Source of the DNA: Alphaproteobacteria bacterium
Lineage (GTDB): Bacteria > Pseudomonadota > Alphaproteobacteria > Micropepsales > Micropepsaceae
Assembly: GCA_947474565.1 (NCBI GenBank)
Contig: CANJIS010000019.1
Coordinates: 1 to 42,786, forward strand
Direction: 5' to 3'
DNA length: 42,786 bases
Every line of letters begins with the position of its first letter. The first letter of the stretch is position 1. The notes below the pieces were generated by a model that had not been told where the DNA came from, ran no database searches, and saw nothing but the letters and a program-made list of their open reading frames with translations. The position numbers were made by a program, and so were the translations under genes. Below, in pieces: positions 3,028 through 42,786 of this stretch.

Positions 3028-3954
3028 ATGGACTCTTCGTCCGATTTGCCCTTGGCCAGCCGAGGTCTGTGGTTCGAAAGCGCCCTGGGAAATTTGGGGC
3101 TGCCATCGGCCCGGCGCGTTGCACCTGCCGCCTTTGACACAAGGCCGGTTCGCAGCCACCGCACGATCTTCATTTCCGACACCCATCTGGGCACGCGCGG
3201 CTGCAAGGCCGAAGCGCTGGTGGATTTCCTGGTCCATAACGAATGCGAGACCCTGTTTCTGGTGGGGGACATTGTCGATGGCTGGCAGCTCAAGCGCCGC
3301 TGGATCTGGCCGCAAGCCCATACCCAGGTGATTGCGGAAATCCTGCGCAAGGCGGATGGCGGCACACGGGTGATTTTCGTGCCCGGCAATCATGACGAAT
3401 TCGCCCGCGATTATGCCGGCCGGCTGTTTGCCGGTGTCGAGATCATCAACGAGACGGTGCATGTCACCGCGGACGGCAAGCGTTTCCTGGTGCTGCACGG
3501 CGACCGCTTCGACGGCGTGATCGCCTGCGCCAAATGGCTGGCCCATGCCGGCGACTGGGCTTACGGCATGGCGCTTCGCGGCAACGATCTTCTGTTCCGC
3601 GTGCGCAAGGCGCTGGGCCTGCCTTACTGGTCGCTGTCGGCCTGGCTGAAGCACAAGGTCAAGAACGCGGTCGAATATATCTCCCACTACGAAGAAACCG
3701 TTGCGGCGGAAGCCAGGAGGCGGGGCGTAGACGGGGTGGTTTGCGGCCACATCCACCAAGCCGAAATCCGCATGATCGGGGATGTCCTTTATCTCAACGA
3801 CGGAGACTGGGTTGAAAGCTGCAGCGCCCTTGTCGAAGATGCCCGCGGAAATATGGAGATTCTGCGCTGGGAACTCCCGCCTCAAAGAAGCGCCGTCCGC
3901 ACCGGTCACGTCGAACCGGCCGGCGATCCCGCGCCCGCGCTTATTCCCGCGTAG
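3028..3954 (+). CDS. UDP-2,3-diacylglucosamine diphosphatase-like metallophosphoesterase (LpxH/COG2908 type)
   Basis: The 308-residue protein carries the full calcineurin-like metallophosphoesterase signature. SDTHLG gives D51 and H53, GDIVDGW gives D81, and GNHDE gives N121 and H122; HGD is at 157-159 and GHIH at 240-243. The RRWIWPQAH insert after the second motif is typical of the COG2908 group that includes LpxH, which cleaves UDP-2,3-diacylglucosamine to lipid X in lipid A synthesis. Many alphaproteobacterial members of this broader group are paralogues whose substrate is not proven. The first 45 residues are an extra N-terminal stretch. The start is supported by AGGAGA 9 bases upstream. 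A GT4 glycosyltransferase follows within 40 bases, and this pairing suggests an envelope-glycolipid role. Confidence 0.85.
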   Translation: MDSSSDLPLASRGLWFESALGNLGLPSARRVAPAAFDTRPVRSHRTIFISDTHLGTRGCKAEALVDFLVHNECETLFLVGDIVDGWQLKRRWIWPQAHTQVIAEILRKADGGTRVIFVPGNHDEFARDYAGRLFAGVEIINETVHVTADGKRFLVLHGDRFDGVIACAKWLAHAGDWAYGMALRGNDLLFRVRKALGLPYWSLSAWLKHKVKNAVEYISHYEETVAAEARRRGVDGVVCGHIHQAEIRMIGDVLYLNDGDWVESCSALVEDARGNMEILRWELPPQRSAVRTGHVEPAGDPAPALIPA

Positions 3955-5100: not shown

Positions 5101-6693
5101 ATGGCGTTGGCGCCCCGCCCTTTTCTTGACCGCAGGGAATGGCTTTTTCTGAGTCTGGTGATCCTGTTCTGGGCCGCGTTTGTCGTGGTCCTGGGCAAGG
5201 ACACCAGCTGGGATTTCCGCAATTATCACTGGTACGCGCCCTACGCCTTTCTCAACGGGCGGCTGGGCCTTGATGTCGCCGTCGCCCATCAGGCGAGCTG
5301 GTACAATCCCTTTCTCGACATTCCTTTCTATCTGCTGGCCACCCACACGCGATCCTGGATCGCGCTGGCGATGCTGGGCGCCGTGCAGGGCGCCAATGTC
5401 GTTCCGCTGTATCTGATTGCGCGCGAAGGCCTGAACTTTGCCGACAAGAAATTGGCGGCGGGGGCGCTGGCGCTGGCGGGCGAATTCGGCGCGCTCACGC
5501 TCACCGAGTTCGGCACCACCTATTACGACAATGTGATGAGCCTGTTCGTGTTCACGGGGCTGGCGATTTTGATTGTCTGCCAGCGCCGCCTGCGGGATGG
5601 GCCGCCACAGGGCGCCGCCCTGATCGCCGGATTGGCCGGGCTGATCACCGGCATGGCGATGGGACTGAAGCTGCCGGAGATGCCGTTCTGCATCGGCTTT
5701 GCCGCGGCGCTGCTGGCTTTGGGCGGAAGCGGGAAACAACAAGCGGCGCGATTGATCGGCGGCGGCGTGGGCGGGCTGGCGGGGTTCACCCTGTTCAGCG
5801 CGCCGTGGATGCTGAAGATGTATCATCTCACCGGCAACCCGCTCTTTCCCTATTTCAACGAGTATTGGCGCTCGCCTTTGGTGCTGGCCGCGCCGTATCG
5901 CGACTTGCGCTTTGTCCCCACGCATTTCTGGCGGGAAGTGCTGTTCCCCATTCTGTTCTCGGTGGACTGGCATGTCGCCGACGATCTGGGCTTTCAGGAT
6001 TTCCGCGTCTGTGCCGCCTATTTTCTGGTGATCGCCGCCATCATCCTTTGGGTGGCCAAGCGCCAAAGCCGCGATCCCTTGATGACCAATCGCGTGGCGC
6101 TGCCGCTGATCGCCTTCTGCGCCGTCAGCTATCTGGTGTGGCTGAAAATGTTCGCCATCTATCGCTACATCGTGGCGCTGGAGATGATCGCGCCCATTCT
6201 GATCGTGACGGCAGTGGGGCTTTATCCGGCGTCGCGGCGGACACGCTATCTGGCGCTGGCTGCCATCGCCTTTCTGCTTCTGGTGACGGCGCGCAGTGAT
6301 TTCCTGGAGCGGGCGCCCTTGGGCGATCCCTATGTGCAGGCCGCGATCCCGCCCATCGCCAAACCGGACCGGACCATGGTGCTGATAACCGGCGACAGCC
6401 CGATGGGCTTTATCGCCACCCAATTGCCGCCCCAGATTCCGGTGCTGCGGGTGGATGGCTGGATGGTGCAGCCCAAGGACGGCACCGAGCTCACCCGTCA
6501 GATGAAGAGCCGGGCCGGCCGCCATCTGGCGGAAGGCGGCGATCTTTTCCTGATCGCCGACGCCACCGATATGACACGGGCGCGCGACGCGCTCGCAGAC
6601 TATAGTCTTGCCGTCCGCTGGCCCGAATGCCAGCAATTCGACACCAATCTGGCAGGCACCTATCAATGGTGCCCGCTTGCGAGAAAACCATGA
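5101..6693 (+). CDS. Polytopic membrane protein, GT-C-type glycosyltransferase-like
   Basis: The 530-residue protein has roughly ten or more membrane segments (for example residues 15-31, 67-80, 100-125, 150-170, 180-205, 215-238, 305-325, 340-360, 370-392 and 395-410) and a soluble C-terminal part of about 120 residues. The first external loop carries GKDTSWDFRNYHWY followed by PYAFLNGRL, resembling the acidic-residue loop of GT-C enzymes that use polyprenyl-phosphate sugars (GT39/GT87-like). The exact family is not recognised. The gene ends in an ATGA overlap with a GT2 gene, itself coupled to gtrA, so the protein is well placed to be the acceptor-specific transferase of a Gtr-type module. 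The start at ATG 5101 has no clear ribosome binding site, and an ATG at 5073 is out of frame. Confidence 0.7.
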   Translation: MALAPRPFLDRREWLFLSLVILFWAAFVVVLGKDTSWDFRNYHWYAPYAFLNGRLGLDVAVAHQASWYNPFLDIPFYLLATHTRSWIALAMLGAVQGANVVPLYLIAREGLNFADKKLAAGALALAGEFGALTLTEFGTTYYDNVMSLFVFTGLAILIVCQRRLRDGPPQGAALIAGLAGLITGMAMGLKLPEMPFCIGFAAALLALGGSGKQQAARLIGGGVGGLAGFTLFSAPWMLKMYHLTGNPLFPYFNEYWRSPLVLAAPYRDLRFVPTHFWREVLFPILFSVDWHVADDLGFQDFRVCAAYFLVIAAIILWVAKRQSRDPLMTNRVALPLIAFCAVSYLVWLKMFAIYRYIVALEMIAPILIVTAVGLYPASRRTRYLALAAIAFLLLVTARSDFLERAPLGDPYVQAAIPPIAKPDRTMVLITGDSPMGFIATQLPPQIPVLRVDGWMVQPKDGTELTRQMKSRAGRHLAEGGDLFLIADATDMTRARDALADYSLAVRWPECQQFDTNLAGTYQWCPLARKP

Positions 6694-7622
6694 CACGCAT
6701 TGCCGTTCTGGTGCCCTGTTATAACGAAGAAGCCGCCATCGCTGCGGTGGTGCGCGATTTCCGCCGCGTGCTGCCGGGCGCGGTAATTTATGTCTATGAT
6801 AACAACTCCAGCGACGGTACCGCAGCAGCCGCGCGGGAAGCCGGCGCGGTGGTGCGCCAGGAAGTCCGCCAGGGCAAAGGCAATGTGGTGCGGCGGATGT
6901 TCGCCGATGTCGATGCCGACATGTATGTGCTGGTGGATGGCGATGACACCTATGAAGCCGAGGCCGCGCCGCGCCTGATCCGGCACGCGATCGAAACCGG
7001 GACCGATCTAGTCACCGCCCGGCGTATTCATACCGAGGCCGGCGCCTATCGCCCCGGTCATGTGCTGGGCAACCAGATGCTGACCGGCCTGACCACTTTG
7101 CTGCTGAATGTGCAGCTTACCGACATGCTGTCGGGCTATCGCGTCTTTTCCCGCCGCTTTGTCAAAAGCTTTCCTTTCACCGCCCAGGGTTTCGGCATCG
7201 AGACCGAACTGACGGTGCATGCGGTGCGGCTGATGATGCCCATGGCCGAACTGGGCACACGCTATAAAGAGCGGCCGGCGGGATCGGTCTCCAAACTCAA
7301 CACCTGGGTGGACGGCTTTCGCATCCTGCGCACCATTGTGCATCTGATGCGGGAGGAGCGGCCGCTGATGTTCTTCATGACAGGGTTTATAATTCTCGCG
7401 CTGGCATCGCTGCTCACCAGCGCACCGGTCGTGAGCGAGTATCTGGAAACCGGGCTGGTGCCACGCCTGCCCACCGCCGTGCTGGCGACTGCCCTGATGC
7501 TGCTGGCGTTCCTGTCACTGATGGCCGGCCTGATCCTGGATACCGTGACGCGCGGCCGCTGGGAGCAGAAGCGAATGGCCTATCTGTCCATTCCCGGGCC
7601 GCAGGATCTTACGCCACCATGA
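6690..7622 (+). CDS. GT2 polyprenyl-phosphate glycosyltransferase (GtrB-like)
   Basis: The 310-residue protein begins MTRIAVLVPCYNEE at ATG 6690, overlapping the previous stop codon (ATGA), which implies translational coupling. It has a GT-A domain with YDNNSSDGTAA, KGNVVRRMF and the metal/nucleotide-binding VDGDDTYEAEAA near residue 81, followed by LSGYRVFSRRFVKSFP and GFGIETELTVHA. These are shared with dolichol/undecaprenyl-phosphate sugar synthases. Two C-terminal membrane segments (about residues 225-245 and 262-283) match GtrB-type enzymes, which load a sugar onto undecaprenyl phosphate at the cytoplasmic face of the inner membrane. The gene overlaps gtrA downstream by four bases. The sugar is unknown. 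Confidence 0.88.
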   Translation: MTRIAVLVPCYNEEAAIAAVVRDFRRVLPGAVIYVYDNNSSDGTAAAAREAGAVVRQEVRQGKGNVVRRMFADVDADMYVLVDGDDTYEAEAAPRLIRHAIETGTDLVTARRIHTEAGAYRPGHVLGNQMLTGLTTLLLNVQLTDMLSGYRVFSRRFVKSFPFTAQGFGIETELTVHAVRLMMPMAELGTRYKERPAGSVSKLNTWVDGFRILRTIVHLMREERPLMFFMTGFIILALASLLTSAPVVSEYLETGLVPRLPTAVLATALMLLAFLSLMAGLILDTVTRGRWEQKRMAYLSIPGPQDLTPP

Positions 7623-12778: not shown

Positions 12779-13399
12779 TTACTGCGCGTTCTTAAGGTCC
12801 CAGACCACGTCGACCAGAATGGTGTCGACGACGGGGTTACCGCCACGGGTCGCCGGTTCCCAGCGCCAGTTGTCCTTCACGTGAGCAACGGCGGCCTGAT
12901 CCAGGCGGTTTGAACCGCTGGTCTTGTCAACCGACACTTCGGTGGCCTTGCCATCGGTGCTGACGGTGACCTTGAGGCGCGTGGTGCCCTGTTCGCCCAG
13001 ACGCTGCGACAGCGCCGGATAGGGCGGAAGGGTGTGCGTCTTTTCGATGCTCTTCGGCGGCTGCGGCGGCACGGGCGGCGGCGGCGGCGGAGCAGCCTTG
13101 ACCACCGGCGGCGGCGGCGGCGGAGCGGCGATAACGATTTGCGGCGGCGGCGGCGCGACAGACGGCGGCGGCTTCACCAGCGCGGGCGGCGGGGGCGGCG
13201 GCGCTTCAACGACGGCTTTCTTGCCGACGACCGATGCGCTGATGTCCATCACTTTGTTACGCAGCTGTTCGCTGGACAGACCGACGACCAAGGCAGCGAT
13301 GATGCCGACGTTGACACCCATGGCCACCAGGCCGCTGGTGGCACGCGCCTGCTTCGATCCCTTAACGGCGTCGCCTAAACTATGCTCAGGACGTTCCAT
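12779..13399 (-). CDS. tonB: TonB family energy transducer
   Basis: The 206-residue protein starts at ATG 13399 (MERPEHSLGDAVKGSKQ). It has a cytoplasmic N-terminus, one membrane anchor (about residues 24-42, LVAMGVNVGIIAALVVGL) and a proline-rich periplasmic spacer (about residues 66-118, with several PPPPPP runs). The C-terminal TonB domain has LPPYPALSQRLGEQGTTRLKVTVSTDGKATEVSV...SGSNRLDQAAVAHVKDNWRWEPA. This is the architecture of TonB, which carries energy from ExbB/ExbD to outer-membrane TonB-dependent receptors. It heads the tonB-exbB-exbD-exbD-TPR operon. No receptor gene is in the window, so the transported substrate is unknown. A frame extending to 13471 adds non-conserved residues and was not used. 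Confidence 0.93.
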   Translation of the reverse strand: MERPEHSLGDAVKGSKQARATSGLVAMGVNVGIIAALVVGLSSEQLRNKVMDISASVVGKKAVVEAPPPPPPALVKPPPSVAPPPPQIVIAAPPPPPPVVKAAPPPPPPVPPQPPKSIEKTHTLPPYPALSQRLGEQGTTRLKVTVSTDGKATEVSVDKTSGSNRLDQAAVAHVKDNWRWEPATRGGNPVVDTILVDVVWDLKNAQ

Positions 13400-14100
13400 G
13401 TGTTCTCGCTCATTTATAAAAATAAACAACCTATCGGGGCGTTGGTCGCATTCCGAAAGGACACCTCCCACTGACGCCTTTGTTAAGCGCTCGTTTCCAC
13501 CTTTTAATCAGTGGTAGACGCGCTTTGCAAGGGCACACTCAAACCGAATTCTTGCTTCTCGTCTTCAACCGCTTGGCAACCCGCCTCACAGTGCATTCAA
13601 CATCTCACGAACCACCCGGCGCATACCGCACCGGGTCATCAAACCGATAAATGTCGAGACAGAAGTCTCCCAACCCGGCGCCATTTCGTTGGCGCTTCTT
13701 GCCCCTCTTGTTAGAGCAATCGTGACCGGCCTTGGCAAGAGGGTGAAGACAATCTGCGCCTGCATATTCACTGCGAAGCTGGGGGCAACAGCAGCATTAT
13801 TTCGCAAATGCAGCATTGCATGACGCGTGACGGCGACGCGGTGAAAGCGCAAAAAAACGCAATAAAACCGCATAAAACGTACACAGACGGTTGTGGCGTA
13901 CACGCCATCCCGCAAGATTCATGCGCCGTTATTGCGGCGCGTGAGAAGGAGTTCCGCATGCTGCGCGGTTAGGACAAAAGCGCGCGCCCGATTGGCTTTT
14001 TTATGCGCTGCCTTCCGTTCAAGCCTGTTGCACAGGGCGCGGGCATGCCTGCAATAGTGACAGTATGTCGGTTTGATCGCATTTTTACGAAGGAATCTGC
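13400..14100. other. 701-bp divergent intergenic region (tonB / glyoxalase)
   Basis: No convincing gene is seen; short frames here (for example 13586-13915 minus) lack ribosome binding sites and family features. The region must hold the tonB operon promoter and the glyoxalase promoter, but I could not pick -35/-10 pairs with confidence. A run of three A-rich tracts at 13851-13857, 13861-13867 and 13872-13877, spaced one helical turn apart, may bend the DNA. Confidence 0.4.
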
Positions 14101-14553
14101 ATGCGCTATCTGCACACCATGGTGCGCGTCGGAAATCTGGACAGCGCACTCGATTTTTATTGCGGCAAGCTTGGGCTCGCAGAAGTGTGCCGGCATGAAA
14201 ACGAGAAAGGCCGCTTTACGCTGGTTTTTCTCGCCACGCCCGAAGAGGCGAAAAAGCTCAGTGGCAGCGCCACCACCGCGATGAGCCCGATGTTGGAGCT
14301 GACCTATAACTGGGATGAGACGCGTTATGCCGGCGGGCGCAACTTTGGTCACCTCGCCTATGCCGTCGAAGACATCTATGCGCTTTGCGAAAAACTGATG
14401 GCCGCGGGTGTGACCATCAACCGGCCGCCACGCGATGGCACCATGGCGTTCATCCGTTCGCCGGATGGAATCTCGATCGAGTTGCTGCAACAGGGCGAAG
14501 CTTTGCCGCCACGCGAACCTTGGGCGTCGATGCAAAACACCGGCGTTTGGTGA
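14101..14553 (+). CDS. gloA: Lactoylglutathione lyase (glyoxalase I)
   Basis: The 150-residue protein is a VOC-fold glyoxalase. It begins [26 protein letters not shown] (metal ligand His5), contains [36 protein letters not shown] (the Glu and His ligands) and ends with [19 protein letters not shown] (the last Glu ligand). Glyoxalase I isomerises the hemithioacetal of methylglyoxal and glutathione to S-lactoylglutathione, protecting against methylglyoxal. Length and motif order are those of the E. coli-type nickel/zinc enzyme. It reads toward the autotransporter gene, with only 14 bases between the two stop codons, and appears monocistronic. Confidence 0.9.
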
Positions 14554-17500: not shown

Positions 17501-18227
17501 CCTGGCAGGGCGTCAGGCTGCCCAGCAGCACCAGGCCGCGGGCGGCATTGCCGATGCTGGTAACGGCCGCTCGGGTGTCGAATACCAGGTTGCCCTGGAT
17601 ATTGCCGTCCAGTTCGACGGCGGTATTGCCGCTGGATTTGTCGCCCACAATGACCGTGGGCTGCAGCGCGACGGGTCCGCCAATGGTGAAGTTGCCATTG
17701 ATCGTCGTGCCCCGCTGCAGAAGAATCCCGTAGCTACCATCGCCTTTGACGCCGATGGAGGAAAAAAGATTGCCCTGGACACTCTGTCTGCTGCCCGTCT
17801 GGGCAACCGTGGTCAGCTCGGTCAACAGAACCGGGGCATTGAAGGTGTGCCCGCCGATGAAGCCCAGGCCGACCTTGTTGGAGCCGGCGCCCATCACGTC
17901 CAGCGTACCGATGCTGTAGATGCCGATATTGTTGGTGATATCGCCGGCGGTGGTATCGACCAGAATGCCGGAACCTGCGGAGGTGCCCAGATTGTTGATC
18001 GCGCCCGTCAGGGCCACGAAGTTATTGGAATTGAGGATAACGGCGGGCGAGGCGGTTTTGACCGAGACAACGCCGCCCTGTTCAATGGTGATGTTGCCCG
18101 CGCCGCTGGTGGCAAGCGCGCCGCTGGTGGTGCCTTGGGAGATTGTGGTGTCGGCCCGCACGCCGGAAGCAAAGCCGGCCACAAGCGCGGCCATTGCGGC
18201 GGAAAGCATCAAACGCTGCTTGTTCAA
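14568..18227 (-). CDS. Large autotransporter (type Va secretion) outer-membrane protein
   Basis: The protein has about 1,219 residues. I place the start at TTG 18227, behind AAGGA, because it gives a clean signal peptide (MNKQRLMLSAAMAALVAGFASGVRA); an in-frame ATG at 18281 would add 18 residues. The passenger (to about residue 920) is rich in Gly, Ser, Thr, Asn and Ala, with repeated INNAGSI-, GFINRGQI- and GLLNTGII-like strands typical of a right-handed beta-helix. The last 270-300 residues (from about LWGQEFSGMV) match an autotransporter beta-barrel with alternating aromatic strands (GFGFSLGMDAG, WYMLTGYTNW, FLDTKLDIGYG, EARMGYRYD, WSIGLNYDWI). The C-terminus is LLGRI instead of the usual aromatic Phe/Trp recognised by BAM. 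A surface adhesin or biofilm role is possible but unproven. Confidence 0.85.
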   Translation of the reverse strand: MNKQRLMLSAAMAALVAGFASGVRADTTISQGTTSGALATSGAGNITIEQGGVVSVKTASPAVILNSNNFVALTGAINNLGTSAGSGILVDTTAGDITNNIGIYSIGTLDVMGAGSNKVGLGFIGGHTFNAPVLLTELTTVAQTGSRQSVQGNLFSSIGVKGDGSYGILLQRGTTINGNFTIGGPVALQPTVIVGDKSSGNTAVELDGNIQGNLVFDTRAAVTSIGNAARGLVLLGSLTPCQDIASLSYTCGTSSPIAGGAALGNVGAFVNAGAISSTGTTVIKSAGGNNEGGVALVIGGSLAGGFLNNGPATANTSTPAGTITGNGVQPVMVVDPSANLTTATSVIPGPLVFGLVPTSVDQVDGGKYGFINRGQITTRPLNNNESVLGLVINGASAFYDTKIAGGLLNTGIIQATTATSVNTNSATSATGFIVGSYATIPKIVVSSQAASSANFTAGTINAIVSGPGGGAATALSILANATVPEITVLPRASIAAQVASTTTAPTAALATSSAPFVQSSTAIIDASGGVKTINNAGSIMAQITAQNPASGAVVSNTAKSIDLSAGTNGRTTINNSGKIQGDLFFNAGGNGNQLNVGNTGVGFNDHTGNANTTITTANGGTAVTNTPGNYATVSGVVTSSVSGLAPTADPTLISFGAGVGNQLHVGSYGYVNAAILSTPGGLDVEVDNNGQLFIANNQGTGSLNARDVHINGGVLGLSISQTTSNSLPVIRASREAVISSSAVIGLQFGSFISAPSAAKPTAQTITLISAPTVVDAGLTDQNSALSLAIPFLFESPSETGYSGGAPLRNSGTALTLTLIPRSTGATNADGTAGLNLSGSALKLFPYTVAALGNDSTLGAAIASGLTVYNGNSGIPSGINIAASQQKSQRIFSQFAPDVSGGARQVAILITDQATGPVAARQRLLRSYGNQSGELTLWGQEFSGMVRNQGAYDGENDLTVYKDHGFGFSLGMDAGSSRTGWYGGALTFYSSDINQTLPRASQTRLNWYMLTGYTNWRGNRAFLDTKLDIGYGNLKGTRQLLIGNQLRVAQGKRASLLGAIGATTGVTLKYNGFDIIPHFSLDGLTMREEGYTETNGGDGFNLQVAPYYANSLRAFLGVDAKTSFNLWDATLSPEARMGYRYDTIGAPVKLKSAFISTGGLSAPANTFTVVGPDPDRGNVLVGFGLSGGTDTWSIGLNYDWIRGSNASTTQVGTISLLGRI

Positions 18228-18511
18228 AGTAGTCCGATCCTTTTTGTGCCGGCCAAAGGGGCGGCGGTTGGCGCCCCACATCTGGCTGCCGCCCTGTCAG
18301 GCCCTTCCAGGCCTTCCGAGGTGATTTTTAAGCAATCCGTTCGATCCTCGAGGTTGTCAGCTACCGGCCGGCCCGGGTCACTCCTCCAGAGCCCCCTTTG
18401 TTACCCACTAAAAGCCCCGGTTCAACACCAAATTTTCGCGCTTTAATCAGGTGTTAGCCCCGGCTGGACCAATATCGGGGGTGAAAAATCCTTAACGGGG
18501 CACGTTTTGCC

Positions 18512-22716: not shown

Positions 22717-23366
22717 TTACTGAAGCGGCGGCATCTGGGCCACGGAAGCAGTAGGCTCCGACGGCGCGGTGATAGCAGGCGCGGTGACAGGCTGCTTCAA
22801 CGCAACCGTCGGCCCAGCAGTTACAGCAGGCGCTTCCGCAAGCTGCACCGAAGAACCTTCCTTCTGCGCCGGCGAGACATTGTCCATGGTGAAGGTCATG
22901 GGCGCGTCAATCGCCACGTTGTCGGTGGGACCAATGCCGATACCGGGCGTCACCGCTTTGGCGGTCTGCACCGGCGCTGCAGCCGGAGCTTCAACAGCAG
23001 CGCTTTGCACCGGCTCGGGCGCCGGCAAGGCTTCCGGCGCAGGCGCCGGCTCACTGGCCGCCAGCTTGGGTGCTGGCGCGGTTTTCATCGCCACCGCCTT
23101 GGCGGCGACATGATTGGTGGTGACGGACTGATAGGCATAAAGGCCACCGCCAGCACCGCGACCACCGCCGCGCCGATCAGTTTGGGAAGATTGGTGGTTT
23201 CTTCATCGTCCTGCGCCGTGGTGTGGATGGGCCGTATCGAAGACGAATCGTCTTGGTCGAACCTTTGCTCGATGACAGCCTCGCTCATCACACCTTGTGA
23301 AATTTCCGCAGGTGTCGGCTCAGCCAGGCTGTTGTTGACGTTCGGGTTGAAACTGAAGTCGCGCAT
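22717..23366 (-). pseudogene. Frameshifted single-span membrane protein with Pro/Ala-rich periplasmic domain
   Basis: One gene appears split between two frames. The 5' part starts at ATG 23366, behind a perfect AGGAGG, as MRDFSFNPNVNNSLAEPTPAE and runs into LPKLIGAAVVAVL, the start of a membrane helix, then shifts into non-helical SPSPPIMSPPRRWR and stops at 23085. The other frame over the same bases reads GGLYAYQSVTTNHVAAKAVAM, a natural end to that helix. It continues without interruption through a Pro/Ala-rich domain (APAPEALPAPEPV ... TPGIGIGPTDNVAIDAPMTFTMD) to 22717, directly before a good terminator. The frame change falls between about 23141 and 23175 and equals loss of one base. It may be a real mutation, a sequencing error in GC-rich DNA, or recoding. 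The function is unknown. Confidence 0.65.
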
Positions 23367-23537
23367 TTTTCCTCCTGCATGCAATTGATCTGCAAAGAGA
23401 ACGGCTTGATGCGCATGCGGTTGCGAAGCAGCGGCGAACAAGGGCGAAATTGCGGCGATGTGGAATTTTGCGCGTTGAATATCAGGGAAAACATTGGCGC
23501 TTATCTTTTTCCCGCCATGTTTCTGCGCGCTACAAAA

Positions 23538-24329
23538 TCAACCTGCGAGCAGTGCCATCGCTTGTGCATGCAAGCGCTTGTCGCCCGCGGCCAGGATAGT
23601 CTTGCCGGATTGCGCTGATCCGCCATCCCAACTTGTCATGATACCGCCCGCACCTTCCACCAGCGGAATGAGCGCTGCGGCATCCCAGGCCTTGAATCCG
23701 GCTTCGATAATCACATCGACAAAGCCCATCGCCAGCGCTGCGAAAATATAGCAATCGCCGCCATAACGGGTCAGGCGCGCCTTGTGGTGAACGCGCGTGA
23801 AGGCCGCCTGCTGCTCCGGCGACATATAAGCGGACGGATCGGTGGCGCAGAGCACTGCTTCGGAAATGTCAGCACAGGCGCGCACCTGGATCGCTGTGCT
23901 GCGTCCGGCCTGCACCAAGTGGGCGGCGCCATTGACGCCGATAAAGCGTTCGCCCAACACCGGCTGATCGAGAATGCCCAGTACCGGACGGCCCGCTTCT
24001 TCCAGCGCGATCAACTGACCCCATTCATGGCGGCCGGTGATGAAGGCACGGGTGCCATCCACGGGATCAAGCACCCAGCGATAGGAATTCTTGCCGGCCG
24101 CCTCGCCGAATTCTTCGCCCAGAATACCGTCGTCCGGCCGCTCTTTGGCAATCAGCGCGCGCATGGCGCGCTCGGCCCCGCGATCCGCTTCGGTCACCGG
24201 ATCAAAAGCGTGCTCGCCTTTTTTGTTGGTGACATCCAGCGGCTTGCGGAAATAGGGCCGGATCACCGCGCCGCCGGCATCCGCGAGCCGGTTGGCGAAA
24301 GCGATCAATCCGTCATCGACCTGGGTCAT
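23538..24329 (-). CDS. hisN: Inositol-monophosphatase family phosphatase, histidinol-phosphatase (HisN)-like
   Basis: The 263-residue protein has the metal-dependent lithium-sensitive phosphatase signatures. DPVTEADRGAERAMRALI and ILGEEFGE carry the first Glu ligand, VLDPVDGTRAFITG is the core metal site, and FKAWDAAALIPLVEGAGGIMTSWDG is the C-terminal Asp motif. Within the family, DPVDGTRAF-TG and YGGDCYIFAALAMGFVDVIIEAG resemble the HisN-type histidinol-phosphate phosphatases of actinobacteria and alphaproteobacteria more than myo-inositol monophosphatases. The likely reaction is removal of phosphate from L-histidinol phosphate in histidine synthesis, in the cytoplasm. No other his genes are nearby, so the specific assignment is an inference. 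Confidence 0.8.
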   Translation of the reverse strand: MTQVDDGLIAFANRLADAGGAVIRPYFRKPLDVTNKKGEHAFDPVTEADRGAERAMRALIAKERPDDGILGEEFGEAAGKNSYRWVLDPVDGTRAFITGRHEWGQLIALEEAGRPVLGILDQPVLGERFIGVNGAAHLVQAGRSTAIQVRACADISEAVLCATDPSAYMSPEQQAAFTRVHHKARLTRYGGDCYIFAALAMGFVDVIIEAGFKAWDAAALIPLVEGAGGIMTSWDGGSAQSGKTILAAGDKRLHAQAMALLAG

Positions 24330-31045: not shown

Positions 31046-31777
31046 TTAGATTTGGTGGCCGACGGCGCGAGGTCTTAACGCATCGAAGGGGCCTGATAAC
31101 AAAAGCCCGGCGGCATAGCCGCCCAGATGCGCCTGCCAGGCGATCAGACCCGTTTCACCCGCCATGCCGAAGCCGGTAAGCCCCGCCACCACATTCAGCA
31201 CCGCCCAGATCACAGTGAACAGGATGATCTGCCGCGACCACAGCGGCAGCATGGCGGCCTCGGCAGAGGGGCCCTGCCCTAGCAGGGCCGGCCGTTCCGT
31301 GGGCAGCAGCCGGATGCCCGCCGCCATCAGACCGGAGACTGCGGCTGACGCCCCGATCACCGGCTCCATCGAAGCCCAGTTGAACGCCAGATGCGTCGCC
31401 GCCCCTGCCACACCGCAGACTGCAAAGAAGACCAGGAGCAGGGCAGCACCGAAGCGGCGCGCCACGATCGGCCCGAAGGCAAGCAGCCACAGACTGTTGA
31501 TCGCCAGGTGGGTGTAGTCGTTGTGCAGGAACATATAAGTGAGAAAGGGAATTCCCCGCTCCACCAGGCTGCCGCCGTCAATCCCATGCTGGGACAGGAA
31601 GTCGGCACTGTAGCGTGCCGGAATGAAAGCGTACTGGTTAATCCAGGCCAGCGACTGCGCGGCAGACACCAGGGTGCGGGCGGCATGCGCCGCCACCAGC
31701 AACGCGATCAGGATCAGCACCACCGCCGGCGCGCGGAAAATGGGTTGGCGAGGGGCGTGCGGCTGCAGGAAGGCCAT
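31046..31777 (-). CDS. Rhomboid family intramembrane serine protease
   Basis: The 243-residue protein starts at ATG 31777 (MAFLQPHAPRQPIFRAP). It has about six membrane helices, with the rhomboid signatures in order. LHNDYTHLAINSLWLLAFG gives the conserved H..N pair of helix 2 (H85 to N94). GASAAVSGLMAAG carries the catalytic Ser144 in helix 4, and AHLGGYAAGLLL carries the catalytic His217 in helix 6. Both catalytic residues are present, so it should be an active protease that cuts other membrane proteins in the inner membrane. The substrate is unknown. It lies convergent to the RND pump operon. Confidence 0.9.
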   Translation of the reverse strand: MAFLQPHAPRQPIFRAPAVVLILIALLVAAHAARTLVSAAQSLAWINQYAFIPARYSADFLSQHGIDGGSLVERGIPFLTYMFLHNDYTHLAINSLWLLAFGPIVARRFGAALLLVFFAVCGVAGAATHLAFNWASMEPVIGASAAVSGLMAAGIRLLPTERPALLGQGPSAEAAMLPLWSRQIILFTVIWAVLNVVAGLTGFGMAGETGLIAWQAHLGGYAAGLLLSGPFDALRPRAVGHQI

Positions 31778-31983
31778 GGCGCTTATATCTAAGAGGTCCG
31801 CGCGCCCGTGCAATGCTTCGGATTGGCACAGCGCAAATTTTCAATCCGGCACAGCGCCGGTCCCAGGCGCCAGCTTCGCCCCGTTAACCCGCCGGTAACA
31901 CCTGAATAAAGCCCGTTTTCCGCGGCTTTTTAATTGCATTCGTTCCTGTTTGAGACGCCAACCTCTTAACGGCGCTTAAGAAC

Positions 31984-32031: not shown

Positions 32032-32436
32032 ATGCCCCATACCAAGAAAGTCCTCGCCCTCGTCCTTTTCAGCGCTCTGTCGGCCACTGCGGCCCAGGCG
32101 CAAAGCTGGACCCAGGCTTCCAACTACAATGGCAACGCCTCCTCGCAGAATACCCCGTCCAATTTCCAGCTGCGCGACCCCCAGGGCAACCTGACCCGGG
32201 TCAATGGCGAGTTTCAGTCTTCCTCCGGCGGCTACTCGTCTCAGGGCGGCACACAGACTGCCTCTGCCGGCACCGGTGGAGCTGGCACGAGCGGTGCAGG
32301 AGCACAGTACGGCCAAGCCTCTGCAATCGGTAACTCGCTGAACGTGGTCGTACTTGGAAATCGGAACACGACTGTCATCGACGCCACGCAAATCAATAAC
32401 GGCAATCAGACCGCCTCTGTCGAACTGAATCACTAA
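32032..32436 (+). CDS. hfaA: HfaA-like holdfast anchor protein
   Basis: The 134-residue protein has a signal peptide (MPHTKKVLALVLFSALSATAAQAQ), then SWTQASNYNGNASSQNTPSNFQLRDPQGNLTRVNGEFQSS. After a Gly/Ser/Thr-rich middle it ends with AIGNSLNVVVLGNRNTTVIDATQINNGNQTASVELNH. The LRD-GNLT-VNG segment and the IGN-LNVVV-G--NT-I--TQ-N-GN repeat are features I associate with HfaA, a small amyloid-like/curli-like outer-membrane protein that helps anchor the polysaccharide holdfast in Caulobacter. It is followed by a CsgG-like hfaB and an hfaD-like gene, as in the hfaABD locus. It is the first gene behind a consensus sigma-54 promoter. Confidence 0.8.
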   Translation: MPHTKKVLALVLFSALSATAAQAQSWTQASNYNGNASSQNTPSNFQLRDPQGNLTRVNGEFQSSSGGYSSQGGTQTASAGTGGAGTSGAGAQYGQASAIGNSLNVVVLGNRNTTVIDATQINNGNQTASVELNH

Positions 32437-32460: not shown

Positions 32461-33519
32461 ATGACTCGCCGCGGACGTAAACACCTCCTGAAGCCCCTGG
32501 CCCTCGTTCTGGCCTCTGTGGCGCTCGCAGGCTGCATTCACACCGATCCCGACGCTTCGGGGCGGTACACCTCGCCCATCGGTGGCGCCCCGGTGATCAC
32601 CAACGAAACGCCCTATTCATAGTCCCTGCGCTGCATGTCCGGCATTGTCGGTCAGCATCCGGTGCGCATCGCGGTGGGCCAGATCTCTGACTATACCGGC
32701 AAGTACGAATCCGATGGTTCGGGCCGCAAGGTCACCGCCGGCGCCGCCCTGATGGCGATGACCGCCCTGTCCAAGTCGGGCGTCCATATGGTCGAACGCT
32801 TCGACACCTCGGTCGCCGAGATGGAACTGAAATACGCCAACAACAAGCTGATCGCCAACGATCAGAACCCGCAGCCGGACGACTATCGCAAGATCATGGC
32901 CGGCGCCATCCCGGGTTCGGATTACTACATCGTCGGCGGCGTCACCGAGCTGAACTTCAATCTTCGCTCGCAGAACGCCAGCGGCAATGGCGGCGGCACC
33001 GGCACCAACGCCACCACCGGCACCATCGGCGGCAGCGACTATGTGATGAATGTCGGCCTGGACCTTCGCCTGGTCAACAGCAACACCCTGGAAGTCGCGG
33101 ACGTGATTTCCTACCAGAAGCAGATCATCGGCCATCAGATCCAGGCCGGCGTGTTCGACTTCCTGGGCAGCACCTTCTTCGACATCAGCGCCGGTGAAAG
33201 CGCGCTGGAGCCGATCCAGCTGGCCATCCGTTCGGTGATCGAACGCGGCGTGCTGGAAATGGTGGGCCGCATCTATCGCGCCTCACCCGGTGCCTGCGCC
33301 ATGTCGAGCGATCCGCTTTACGACGCCCGCTACACCATGGGTCAGCCGTCGCCTTACCAGATGGGCCCGTATCAGCAGCCGTATCCGCAACCAGCCTACT
33401 ATGCCCCTAACCAGGCTTACAATCAGGAGAACTTCAATGAATACGCGCGTCAAATCCCTTTTAGCGGCTACGGTTCTGTCGACCCTGTCGGTGGCGTGCG
33501 CCTCCGCGCAGGCTACTGA
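32461..33519 (+). pseudogene. hfaB: hfaB-like CsgG-family outer-membrane lipoprotein gene interrupted by an in-frame amber codon
   Basis: From ATG 32461 the frame encodes a lipoprotein signal (LASVALAGC, lipidated Cys at residue 22) and GRYTSPIGGAPVITNETPYS. It meets TAG at 32620-32622, then stays open in the same frame as SLRCMSG...HPVRIAVGQISDYTGKYESDG to 33519. The downstream part (VTAGAALMAMTALSKSGVHMVERFDTSVAEMELKYANN, GSDYYIVGGVTELNFNLRS, YVMNVGLDLRLVNSNTLEVADVISYQKQIIG, IRSVIERGVLEMVGRIY) is a full CsgG-like secretin domain as in HfaB, which forms the pore that exports HfaA and HfaD. With the stop, the lipoprotein and pore parts are separate; a restart at ATG 32635 would lack a signal peptide. 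The cause may be mutation, sequence error or readthrough. The tail is rich in Tyr, Pro and Gln. Confidence 0.8.
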
Positions 33520-34138
33520 GTACGGCAGCTGGGGCGACAGCATGTTTGCTGGCGGCGCCATGGGCAGCCAGGTCAGCAACATTCAGGAAAACAACGCCGT
33601 CAACTGGTCCAATCTGAACGGCAAAGTTGATACCGTTCAGGGCGATGTGGTTGTCCAGGGCGCTGCAGGCGGCAACATGATGGACATCACCACCATGAGC
33701 AACACGTTCGTCAGCAGCGACCAGTATGTCGGCTTTAACGGCTCCATCGGCTCCAACATCAATGTCGGGATCAACAATGTCGGCGGCAGCGTCGGCATCG
33801 GGAACCAGGTAGTCTGCAACAGCCTGGGCGTTTCGACCGAACCGGTCTGGACCGCCACGCAGAGCGCCCAGACCTGTAACGCGTCCGATCCGTCCGGCGA
33901 AATCCACGCCAATGTGAGCAATGTGTATGGCGATGCCATCTTCCAGAGCTCGGTGATGAGCAACAAGTTCGAAGTCGACTCCAACGCGCCGAATATGCCG
34001 GTCTTCAATTCTCAGCTGAACAACAGCGCGGTGTCTTCGACGGTCAACGCCAAGGTGTTCAATCTGGGTGGTTCGACGATGTTGTCTTCCAGTGCCATCG
34101 GCAACACTGGCCAGGTCATCCATTACAGCACCGATTGA
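33437..34138 (+). CDS. hfaD: HfaD-like secreted holdfast anchor protein
   Basis: The 233-residue protein starts at ATG 33437 after AGGAGA and overlaps the 3' end of the hfaB frame by 83 bases. Residues 1-26 are a signal peptide (KSLLAATVLSTLSVACASAQA). The mature protein is Ser/Asn/Val/Gly-rich with repeated patterns such as NGKVDTVQGDVVVQGAAGGN, GSIGSNINVGINNVGGSVGIGNQ, HANVSNVYGDAIFQSSVMSN and NAKVFNLGGSTMLSSSAIGN. These suggest a beta-solenoid amyloid-like fold, and there is a Cys pair (CNSLGV ... CNAS). Position after hfaA and hfaB and this composition fit HfaD, a surface protein that tethers the holdfast. Sequence identity to HfaD was not checked, so the symbol rests largely on context. 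Confidence 0.65.
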   Translation: MNTRVKSLLAATVLSTLSVACASAQATEYGSWGDSMFAGGAMGSQVSNIQENNAVNWSNLNGKVDTVQGDVVVQGAAGGNMMDITTMSNTFVSSDQYVGFNGSIGSNINVGINNVGGSVGIGNQVVCNSLGVSTEPVWTATQSAQTCNASDPSGEIHANVSNVYGDAIFQSSVMSNKFEVDSNAPNMPVFNSQLNNSAVSSTVNAKVFNLGGSTMLSSSAIGNTGQVIHYSTD

Positions 34139-34439: not shown

Positions 34440-35084
34440 ATGACCGCCTTGCCGATCGACCTGGACGCCTTCAACGCCGCGCCCCTGACGCGCGAGCCCT
34501 TTGCCTTTTTGATGGTGCCGCAGTTCGTGAAGCGCGAGGCGATGGCCGCGATCAATGCCGATTACCCCCTGGTCAGCCACCCCGGCAGCTTTCCGCTGCC
34601 CACCCTGAAATATGGCCCGGCTTTCGCGAACTTCATGACCGCGATCCAGGGACCGGAATTCACCCGCGCCGTGGAAGAGAAACTGGGCGTCGACCTGTCG
34701 GGCCGCCCCACCATGGTAACGGCGCGGGGCGTTTCCGCCGCGCGCGACGGCCAGATCCACACCGACAGCCGCACCAAGCTGATCACGGTGCTGATCTATA
34801 TGAACAATGCCTGGGAGGCGAAGACCGGCCGCCTGAGGCTGCTGCGCGGACCGGATGATCTGGAAGATGTGATCGCGGAAGTGCCGCCGGACGAAGGCAC
34901 ACTGGTGATCTTCAAGAACGAACCCAACGCCTGGCACGGATTTCATCCCTTTGAGGGACCGCGCCGGGTGATTCAGCTCAATTGGGTGACCGATACCGGG
35001 GTGGTGAAGCGCGAGCAGACCCGCCACCGGGTCAGCGCATTCTTCAAGCGCTTGCGTGGAAAGAACGTCCCAGAGCGGATGTAG
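34440..35084 (+). CDS. 2-oxoglutarate/Fe(II)-dependent oxygenase-like protein
   Basis: The protein is about 214 residues from ATG 34440 (MTALPIDLDAFNAAPLTREPFAFLMVPQFV). It has a prolyl-hydroxylase-type double-stranded beta-helix. The metal motif H-x-D is in GQIHTDSRTKLITVLIYMNN, the distal His is in NAWHGFHPFEGPRRVIQLNWV, and the Arg that binds 2-oxoglutarate follows it (GPRRVIQLN). LRGPDDLEDVIAEVPPDEGTLVIFKNE lies between them, as in P4H-like enzymes. The substrate is unknown; related proteins modify small molecules or proteins in polysaccharide clusters. The frame is open further upstream to 34209 but runs through the terminator, so the internal ATG is preferred. It ends TAG-TGA. Confidence 0.78.
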   Translation: MTALPIDLDAFNAAPLTREPFAFLMVPQFVKREAMAAINADYPLVSHPGSFPLPTLKYGPAFANFMTAIQGPEFTRAVEEKLGVDLSGRPTMVTARGVSAARDGQIHTDSRTKLITVLIYMNNAWEAKTGRLRLLRGPDDLEDVIAEVPPDEGTLVIFKNEPNAWHGFHPFEGPRRVIQLNWVTDTGVVKREQTRHRVSAFFKRLRGKNVPERM

Positions 35085-37477: not shown

Positions 37478-38521
37478 TCAAGAAGCCTGCGGAGTCCATA
37501 AAACGGCATCAATGTTGGGAGCACCGGACGCCAGCATCACCAGGCGATCAAAGCCAAGCGCCACGCCGGAAGCGGGCGGCATATGCGCCAGTGCCGCCAG
37601 GAAATCCTCATCCAGCGGATAGCGGTCGCCATGCACGCGTTCCTTCTCATCCATTTCTGCGATGAAGCGGGCGCGTTGTTCGTTCGCGTCGGTCAATTCG
37701 CCAAAGCCATTGGCCAGCTCCACGCCACAGGCATAAAGCTCAAAACGTTCTGCCAGGCGCGGGTCTTCCGGCTTGGGGCGCGCCAGCGCGGCTTCCGCGC
37801 GGGGGTAATCGTAAAGCACGGTGGGCTTTCCCGCGCCCAAGCGCGGTTCAATGCTGGCGGCCAGCACCTTGCTGAAAATATCCGACCAGCCATCGTGATC
37901 GGCGATGACAAAGCCGGCCCGCTTGGCGCGGGTGGCGAGCATGTCGCGATCACCCTTGCCATAGGGCGACAGGGTATCCAGCAATTCCATGCCAGCATGA
38001 ATGCGGAAGGCGTCTGCCACCGTCAGCCATTCGGCTTCAGCAGCCGCATCACATTCCCGATCCAGATAGGTGAGTTTCTTTCCCGCTTCATCCGCCGCCA
38101 GCTTGAGCAGTATCAACGTATCGGCGATCACGGCGCGGTAATCGGCCCCATCATCCTTGGGTTGGGCGCGGTACCATTCCAGCATGGTGAATTCCGGCGC
38201 ATGCAGCCGGCCCCGTTCCCGATTGCGGAAAACGCGCGCGAATTCAAAAATCTTTTCTTCCCCCGCCGCCAGCAGTTTCTTGGCGGCAAATTCCGGGGAG
38301 GTGTGAAGGTAAAGCGGCTTGCGGCTGCCATCAGGCAGATGCGCTTGCGTGCCAAAGGCATGCAGATGCGCCTCATTGCCGGGCGAGGATTGGAGGATGC
38401 CGCATTCCACTTCGGTGAATTCCTGGGCGTGAAACCAGGCCGCCAGACGCGCCTTGATCCGGCCCCGGAGCATCAGCAGGGGCCGCCGGTCGGCATGAAT
38501 TTGGGCGTCCCACCAGGGCAT
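37478..38521 (-). CDS. epmA: EF-P lysyl/beta-lysyl transferase, LysRS-like (EpmA/PoxA/GenX)
   Basis: The 347-residue protein is the catalytic core of a class II lysyl-tRNA synthetase without the N-terminal tRNA-binding domain, as expected of EpmA. Motif 2 is seen in FARVFRNRERGRLHAPEFTMLEWYRA and motif 3 in GVALGFDRLVMLASG. ELANGFGELTDANEQRARF is the lysine-site segment, and PLYLHTSPEFAAKKLLAAGEEKIFEF precedes motif 2. EpmA activates (R)-beta-lysine with ATP and transfers it to Lys34 of elongation factor P. The start ATG 38521 is supported by AGAGG. efp lies head to head 65 bases away, so the two genes share a divergent promoter region. Confidence 0.93.
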   Translation of the reverse strand: MPWWDAQIHADRRPLLMLRGRIKARLAAWFHAQEFTEVECGILQSSPGNEAHLHAFGTQAHLPDGSRKPLYLHTSPEFAAKKLLAAGEEKIFEFARVFRNRERGRLHAPEFTMLEWYRAQPKDDGADYRAVIADTLILLKLAADEAGKKLTYLDRECDAAAEAEWLTVADAFRIHAGMELLDTLSPYGKGDRDMLATRAKRAGFVIADHDGWSDIFSKVLAASIEPRLGAGKPTVLYDYPRAEAALARPKPEDPRLAERFELYACGVELANGFGELTDANEQRARFIAEMDEKERVHGDRYPLDEDFLAALAHMPPASGVALGFDRLVMLASGAPNIDAVLWTPQAS

Positions 38522-38586
38522 TTTGACCTCTTATAGCCCCCCTGCTATTAGCCCCCGGCAAATCCGCTGATTTGAAGAGGTTTTCC

Positions 38587-40887: not shown

Positions 40888-41034
40888 TCAGCCCCAATCT
40901 TTGCCTTTGTGCGGCTTGCGGATCAGCTGGGGTTCCTGAAAACCCGGCTTGGGCGAAACCGAAACCGGCGCGCCCTTCTTGTCGGCCTTGGGTTTTTTCT
41001 TTTCCCGATTGTTCTTCTGTTCGCGGTTGGCCAT
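40888..41034 (-). CDS. Very small basic protein of unknown function
   Basis: The 48-residue protein starts at ATG 41034, with AAGGA upstream. It begins MANREQKNNREKKKPKADKK and ends QLIRKPHKGKDWG; over a third of the residues are Lys, Arg or His, and it appears disordered. Small lysine-rich proteins with a similar NREKKKPK start are, as far as I recall, common in alphaproteobacteria, without known function. Nucleic-acid or ribosome binding is possible. A longer frame to 41139 adds an unlikely extension. The stop is 17 bases from that of the convergent CHAP gene. Confidence 0.65.
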   Translation of the reverse strand: MANREQKNNREKKKPKADKKGAPVSVSPKPGFQEPQLIRKPHKGKDWG

Positions 41035-42039: not shown

Positions 42040-42090
42040 AGCGGCAGTGTATGAACGCGGCGCGCGGCCGGAACAGATTTTCGCTCCGCC

Positions 42091-42131
42091 AAAAACAAAA
42101 AGCCCCGCGAGATTTCTCTCGCGGGGCTTTT
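42091..42131 (-). terminator. Terminator of the rRNA operon
   Basis: A 15-bp perfect stem (42098-42112 with 42117-42131, AAAAGCCCCGCGAGA/TCTCGCGGGGCTTTT) with a four-base loop is followed on the minus strand by a T-rich tract (TTTTTGTTTTT). It lies about 40 bases after the 5S gene. Confidence 0.9.
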
Positions 42132-42173
42132 CATTGTTCAAGCGGATTATCTTGTTTTGCTTCCTGCCCTTGG

Positions 42174-42293
42174 CAGACCTGGCAGCGTTCTACTCTCCCG
42201 CGGCTTGAGCCGCAGTACCATGGACGCAGAAGGCTTTGACGGCCGAGTTCGAAATGGGATCGGGTAGAATTCCTTCGCTATGACCACCAGGTC
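42174..42293 (-). rRNA. rrf: 5S ribosomal RNA
   Basis: On the minus strand the sequence begins near GACCTGGTGGTCATAGCG and contains CCCGATCCCATTTCGAACTC, the universal 5S loop B/C region. It ends near CGCTGCCAGGTC, which pairs with the 5' GACCTGG. Ends are estimated from the terminal helix and may be off by a few bases. It follows the 23S gene in the usual order. Confidence 0.92.
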
Positions 42294-42419
42294 GGCAAAG
42301 GGCAGAAAGCATTCGCACATTGCTGCGCGAACCGCACAAAATTCATACGACACGTTTGACCGTAGTTATTGGGTATTGGAATGCCTGGCTTTGTTTCCAG
42401 GCATGAAACGAGTGCTGGC

Positions 42420-42786
<367 letters not shown>

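Follow-up and report, generated by a model that had tools for sequence, protein, structure and literature searches.

The window, the whole stretch of 42,786 nucleotides analysed here, is contig C19 of genome G000, a draft consensus of 2.18 Mb in 39 contigs that is 99.84% complete. It holds the genes hfaA, hfaB and hfaD side by side. The central one, hfaB, is frame 1 of 32461-33519 on the + strand by translation of the window, with its final stop at 33517-33519, and is interrupted by an in-frame TAG. The cluster and its two flanking genes, which served as controls, are laid out as follows.

31046..31813, - strand: rhomboid-family membrane protease, upstream flank, control gene (Pfam Rhomboid, 1.1e-23)
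32032..32436, + strand: hfaA, intact, a single open frame of 134 aa (NCBIfam NF037934, 55.5 bits against a cut-off of 50)
32461..32622, + strand: 5' fragment of hfaB, carrying the lipoprotein signal (ALAGC) and the N-terminus and ending at the TAG, with frame and order as in relatives' intact HfaB
32620..32622, + strand: in-frame TAG, hfaB codon 54; GCC (Ala) here in the relatives G009 and G106, both with hfaB intact
32623..33519, + strand: 3' part of hfaB, CsgG-like pore domain, then a proline-rich tail
33437..34138, + strand: hfaD, intact, one open frame of 233 aa, 47-64% identical to the same-place hfaD of five relatives
34440..35084, + strand: 2OG-Fe(II) oxygenase, downstream flank, control gene (Pfam 2OG-FeII_Oxy_3, 3.5e-9)

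Fifty-three codons precede the TAG. The frame reads MTRRGRK...ALAGC...NETPYS, then TAG, then SLRCMSG..., and the stop sits between the lipoprotein signal with the N-terminus and the CsgG pore domain, all in one frame, dividing what would otherwise be one polypeptide. The whole frame scored 360.2 bits against the HfaB model (NCBIfam NF037935, an equivalog) with exactly one TAG within it; the portion from ATG 32635 alone scored 313.9 bits against a cut-off of 300 (7.1e-94) and matched Pfam CsgG (PF03783) at 1.2e-18. This is the one HfaB match in G000, and its position between hfaA and hfaD was confirmed, with hfaD, which matched no NCBIfam or Pfam model at E<=0.1, assigned by homology to relatives alone. 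Reading frame, Pfam domain and HfaB model thus agree with the original prediction of an hfaB-like pore gene interrupted by a single TAG, and its description of the rest of hfaB and of both neighbours as intact holds as well. The first 83 bases of hfaD (33437-33519) overlap the hfaB tail in another frame, which suggests translational coupling.

Intact hfaB orthologues are present in close relatives, and the stop is private to G000. The possibility that relatives ordinarily carry the two parts as distinct genes, which the original prediction had raised against itself, was rejected, since hfaB is one gene in the intact copies examined. Alignment to relatives' HfaB, also proposed there, placed a sense codon opposite the TAG: none of 68 distinct relatives' sequences, sampled by DNA pattern in loci and some of them from outside the order, has a stop at codon 54, and the aligned residue varies (A 39, S 8, D 7, T 5, N 4, Q 3, E 1, G 1). 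Against G009 and G106, the TAG codon differs at all three bases, and so do the last base of the preceding codon and the first base of the following one. A single miscalled base would therefore be insufficient to make the TAG, and the site had already drifted.

To screen the window for broken genes, we set it against reading frames of two relatives, 41 from G009 and 34 from G014. Of 13 flags, two were hfaB, and this comparison revealed no other real gene with an interruption in the window. The other 11 were rejected as interrupted genes: four are start-site extensions (at 3737, 37490-38554, 39225 and 1151-1660), one is a glyoxalase gene that is itself intact and is preceded by an unrelated frame (13302-14550), and six are other frames, three without a Pfam hit (23146-23691, 40889-41032 and 18178-18454), two over 5S rRNA (at 42051-42339) and one overlapping an mmgR-type small RNA (2637-2960). 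That small RNA, of the Rfam suhB/mmgR family, lies at 2646-2716 on the - strand (54.9 bits). The segment 42177-42786 on the - strand is 5S rRNA and the 3' end of 23S rRNA, and the contig ends within the rRNA operon. The window also encodes an autotransporter of 1237 aa (Pfam PF03797; 14568-18281, - strand), possibly another surface protein retained by G000.

The hfaB pore domain gave a dN/dS of 0.18 (0.09-0.33) on the window branch and 0.19 (0.08-0.42) on the G009 branch with G014 as outgroup, and of 0.28 (0.15-0.52) on the window branch and 0.25 (0.12-0.52) on the G106 branch with G009 as outgroup. The window values are similar to those of the comparator branches. The pore domain was therefore constrained over most of the window branch, and the stop, judged from these ratios, is young, or wrong. 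This is in line with the original view of a very recent loss. A clear relaxation of hfaB was not found, as dN/dS was not raised and no decay after the stop can be seen. For hfaD, the window branch stood at 0.51 versus 0.21 for G009, with overlapping intervals, and at 0.45 versus 0.43 for G106, which is not raised.

Private amino-acid changes numbered 28 in the window versus 14 in G009 for hfaB and 36 versus 14 for hfaD; against G106 they numbered 41 versus 14 and 48 versus 15. Synonymous changes were also higher in the window lineage than in G106 (35 versus 22 in hfaB, 27 versus 12 in hfaD), and across 29 control frames, at least one of which (42369-42653) lies in 23S rRNA, is no gene and adds one change per side, the window lineage was somewhat faster overall (763 versus 589 changes). 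The excess of private changes over the control frames was not significant for hfaB (p=0.21); it reached p=0.03 for hfaD and p=0.016 for hfaABD together. The favoured sister of G000 differs by gene, being G106 in the HfaB+HfaD tree and for the oxygenase, and G009 for the rhomboid gene and hfaA. The window's strongest outlier in private changes is a glycosyltransferase family 2 gene (6627-7622, + strand), with 29 amino-acid changes versus 2 in G009.

For the wider sample we took 96 genomes from seven genera of one family in the order; the HfaB model matched in 71. A stop inside the matched stretch was found in G000 alone among these 71; the match is split by a frameshift in G001, and its beginning is missing in G104. 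Scoring of the three hfa genes and of both flanking genes covered 63 of these 71 genomes, G000 included, and left out G081, cut by a contig end, and G110-G114, G116 and G118, with weak, sub-cut-off matches. G035 and G065, whose hfaB is cut by contig ends, were kept and counted as unbroken. Genes that were not found, being cut off or diverged, were not counted as lesions (hfaA in G065 and G068; hfaD in G035, G068, G071, G074, G075, G095 and G119), nor were stops in the proline-rich hfaB tail (G105; L074, from outside the order). Core hfa lesions were present in 4 of the 63 genomes, each different.

G000: TAG in hfaB
G001: frameshift in hfaB
G006: in-frame TAA at hfaA codon 46 (L061 2536-2538, also L009), with hfaA otherwise open
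G104: hfaB start codon and signal peptide deleted (L049 about 2946-2974), plus a later frameshift

G006 also carries stops in the hfaB tail and was scored for its hfaA stop. In G104, hfaB resumes at TPYS, near the position of the window's TAG. The four genomes fall on separate branches of a FastTree tree of HfaB and HfaD, branch supports not being considered. The rhomboid gene showed no internal stop or frameshift at any of the 46 loci where it was found (many of these covered only in part; 63 examined), and the oxygenase gene none at 20 (63 examined). One related genome holds a second, diverged HfaB with 42% identity (G008:C251:6548-7321).

As markers of the flagellum and of the Tad pilus we took FlhA, which has a match in 65 of 96 genomes, and CpaB, which passes its cut-off in 75. 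G000, G001, G006 and G104 have no FlhA or CpaB match of any kind. Of the 13 scored genomes that lack FlhA and in which CpaB does not reach its cut-off, 4 carry lesions, versus 0 of 50 others (Fisher p=0.0012), and the counts are 4 of 10 versus 0 of 38 among genomes at least 90% complete and at most 5% contaminated (p=0.0011); these p values are optimistic, because the markers were picked post hoc, once lesions had been seen in small genomes, the marker-free lineages are grouped on the tree, and a single marker gene stood for each structure in genomes that are drafts. G106, G015, G101 and G105 are without both markers and keep the hfa core. No HfaB match was found in 6 of 60 high-quality genomes, and five of the six (G078, G020, G024, G067 and G117, 96-99% complete) keep FlhA and CpaB. 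Thus, hfa loss is not always consequent on motility loss.

We consider it probable, with good but incomplete confidence, that hfaB in G000 is a young pseudogene produced by nonsense mutation, and the likely loss of function that the original prediction attached to such a mutation is supported. The main rival is an error of sequencing, assembly or binning, the true codon being a sense codon and hfaB intact. The draft state of the genome, in 39 contigs, and the unrelaxed pore domain both suit an error. Against it, the window showed no second real gene with an interruption, a single wrong base would not convert the G009 or G106 sequence to TAG, and random errors would not be expected to gather hfa lesions in genomes that have neither FlhA nor CpaB. 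On balance we regard an error as unlikely.

Less likely again is a polymorphism or switch within the population, with many cells still making HfaB. A stop that is young by dN/dS and a genome that is a consensus would both accommodate it; a switch, however, would not be expected to leave different lesions in every affected relative, and no repeat or slippage tract was seen by eye at the TAG site. A working pore domain, cytoplasmic or otherwise exported, made by restarting at ATG 32635 has very little probability in our estimate. That ATG lies 12 bases past the stop and opens the longest ATG-started frame after it (32635-33519, 294 open codons), but its methionine is an ordinary residue of full-length HfaB common to many relatives, and by eye neither a Shine-Dalgarno-like stretch ahead of it nor a signal peptide or lipobox in its product was found, in keeping with the original expectation that such a product would lack a signal peptide.

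Whether the TAG can be read bears on the remaining alternative. Among the 43 tRNAs found in G000, none has the CTA anticodon that reads UAG; Ile-GAT and Ala-TGC tRNAs were likewise not found in G000. As the contig breaks off within 23S rRNA, the rRNA operon, tRNAs included, has probably not been assembled. Of 31 listed window frames, 6 stop with TAG, all six with Pfam hits, and TAG is an ordinary stop in G000. The base after the hfaB TAG is T, and T after a stop codon is a strong termination context in E. coli. Conserved recoding was rejected, as the aligned residue varies and no stop occurs among the 68 sequences, and recoding of this TAG is unlikely, because none of the 43 tRNAs found reads UAG and six Pfam-supported genes end in TAG. 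Amber readthrough producing full-length HfaB in low or regulated amounts, which the original prediction had entertained and for which a frame open for some 300 further codons under purifying selection could be cited, is on these grounds the least credible of the alternatives and can hardly be given any weight.

For a young pseudogene the predicted consequences are simple. Translation would end at the TAG and the pore would not be made; without it, HfaA and HfaD would not be exported and the anchor would not form, as in Caulobacter hfaB deletions. Translation of hfaD may also be lowered, its start being inside hfaB. As to cause, lineages of the order in which flagella and Tad pili were given up may no longer need an anchor, and because it would then be dispensable, hfa genes would break repeatedly and independently, the hfaB TAG being one such event. 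In our best reading, the loss of hfaB is one of several hfa breakdowns in lineages without the swarmer and attachment apparatus. That this three-gene cluster is broken in four related genomes, each time in a different way and always where flagellum and Tad-pilus markers went undetected, gives the case a weight beyond that of one ordinary nonsense mutation, and the order in which an attachment programme is lost could become traceable gene by gene.

We searched for the holdfast itself with HfsA and HfsD queries taken from adjoining Wzz and Poly_export genes of G120 (Caulobacter sp.) and G121 (Caulobacteraceae), their names being inferred. Pfam Wzz was rejected as a discriminator, since 8 of 12 genomes searched had nothing above the cut-off, several of these with intact hfaB. 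The HfsA query matched in 44 of 96 order genomes, at best at 4.3e-15, and had no match in G000 at E<=0.001, the two query genomes being the only positive controls. G000 also has no HfsD-grade match, its best (1.8e-13) being a general polysaccharide-export match. Among 11 hfaB-bearing genomes outside the order, HfsD scored 7.6e-67 to 6e-163 in seven, all titled Caulobacterales, two of which had supplied the query; in G039, G044, G124 and G126, also outside the order and with an HfaB match, no HfsD orthologue was found. Within the order, 68 genomes were tested, including 62 that match HfaB, and a Caulobacter-type HfsD was found in none (best 1.1e-21).

As judged by these matches, HfaB occurs in this order without a recognisable HfsD, and a diverged exporter could do HfsD's job there. 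Because none of the 62 HfaB-matched genomes has a Caulobacter-type HfsD, the term holdfast anchor is an assumption for this order's HfaABD. The original prediction that the strain may not anchor its holdfast is therefore upheld in part: loss of the anchor would follow from the break in hfaB, and the holdfast was presumed. In G000 the attachment programme may have been lost already before hfaB broke, as the genome has no HfsA, HfsD-grade, FlhA or CpaB match. That all 68 order genomes tested lack an HfsD orthologue questions the role of HfaABD outside Caulobacterales. We tentatively raise the idea, to which we give rather less than an even chance, that HfaABD is there a self-standing curli-like surface system or the anchor of another polymer, present widely in the order without an HfsD orthologue and shed piecemeal and independently in lineages without flagella and Tad pili, the window having caught one loss at its first mutation.

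Window HfaB shares the Pfam family PF03783 with the curli pore CsgG, but reaches only 29.5 bits against the CsgG equivalog cut-off of 505 and has HfaA and HfaD as partners. The holdfast-less laboratory strain C. crescentus NA1000/CB15N carries a frameshift in hfsA, like the window a single lesion in one holdfast gene with the remainder intact; there the lesion is in a synthesis and export gene of a laboratory strain, whereas here it is in the anchor pore of a natural lineage. Work with an hfsA+ C. crescentus strain is described in excerpts of PMC11481889. In C. crescentus, according to excerpts of PMC6707917, HfaA and HfaD reach the outer membrane only with HfaB, cells without HfaB show no anchor complex and shed the holdfast, and anchor assembly requires HfsDAB. 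The window resembles that system in having hfaA, hfaB and hfaD together, with a CsgG-like HfaB, and in HfaB and HfaA scores that exceed the NCBIfam equivalog cut-offs; it differs in its broken hfaB and in the lack of an HfsA or HfsD-grade match in G000. Among open-licence PMC papers, we found none on an hfaB pseudogene in a holdfast context, and none on hfa decay in this order among the titles and abstract openings listed. A parallel comes from Caulobacterales, for which excerpts of a freshwater metagenome study (PMC12700997) describe convergent loss, flagellar and holdfast genes disappearing together in independent lineages; larger genomes in freshwater strains with motility genes are reported in excerpts of PMC12381374. 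In Caulobacterales, as far as the excerpts of PMC12700997 extend, the genes are absent wholesale, whereas here different lesions strike single hfa genes in another order, which those excerpts do not name. We conclude that the case of G000 fits the convergent-loss picture as given in those excerpts and adds to it separate lesions in another order.
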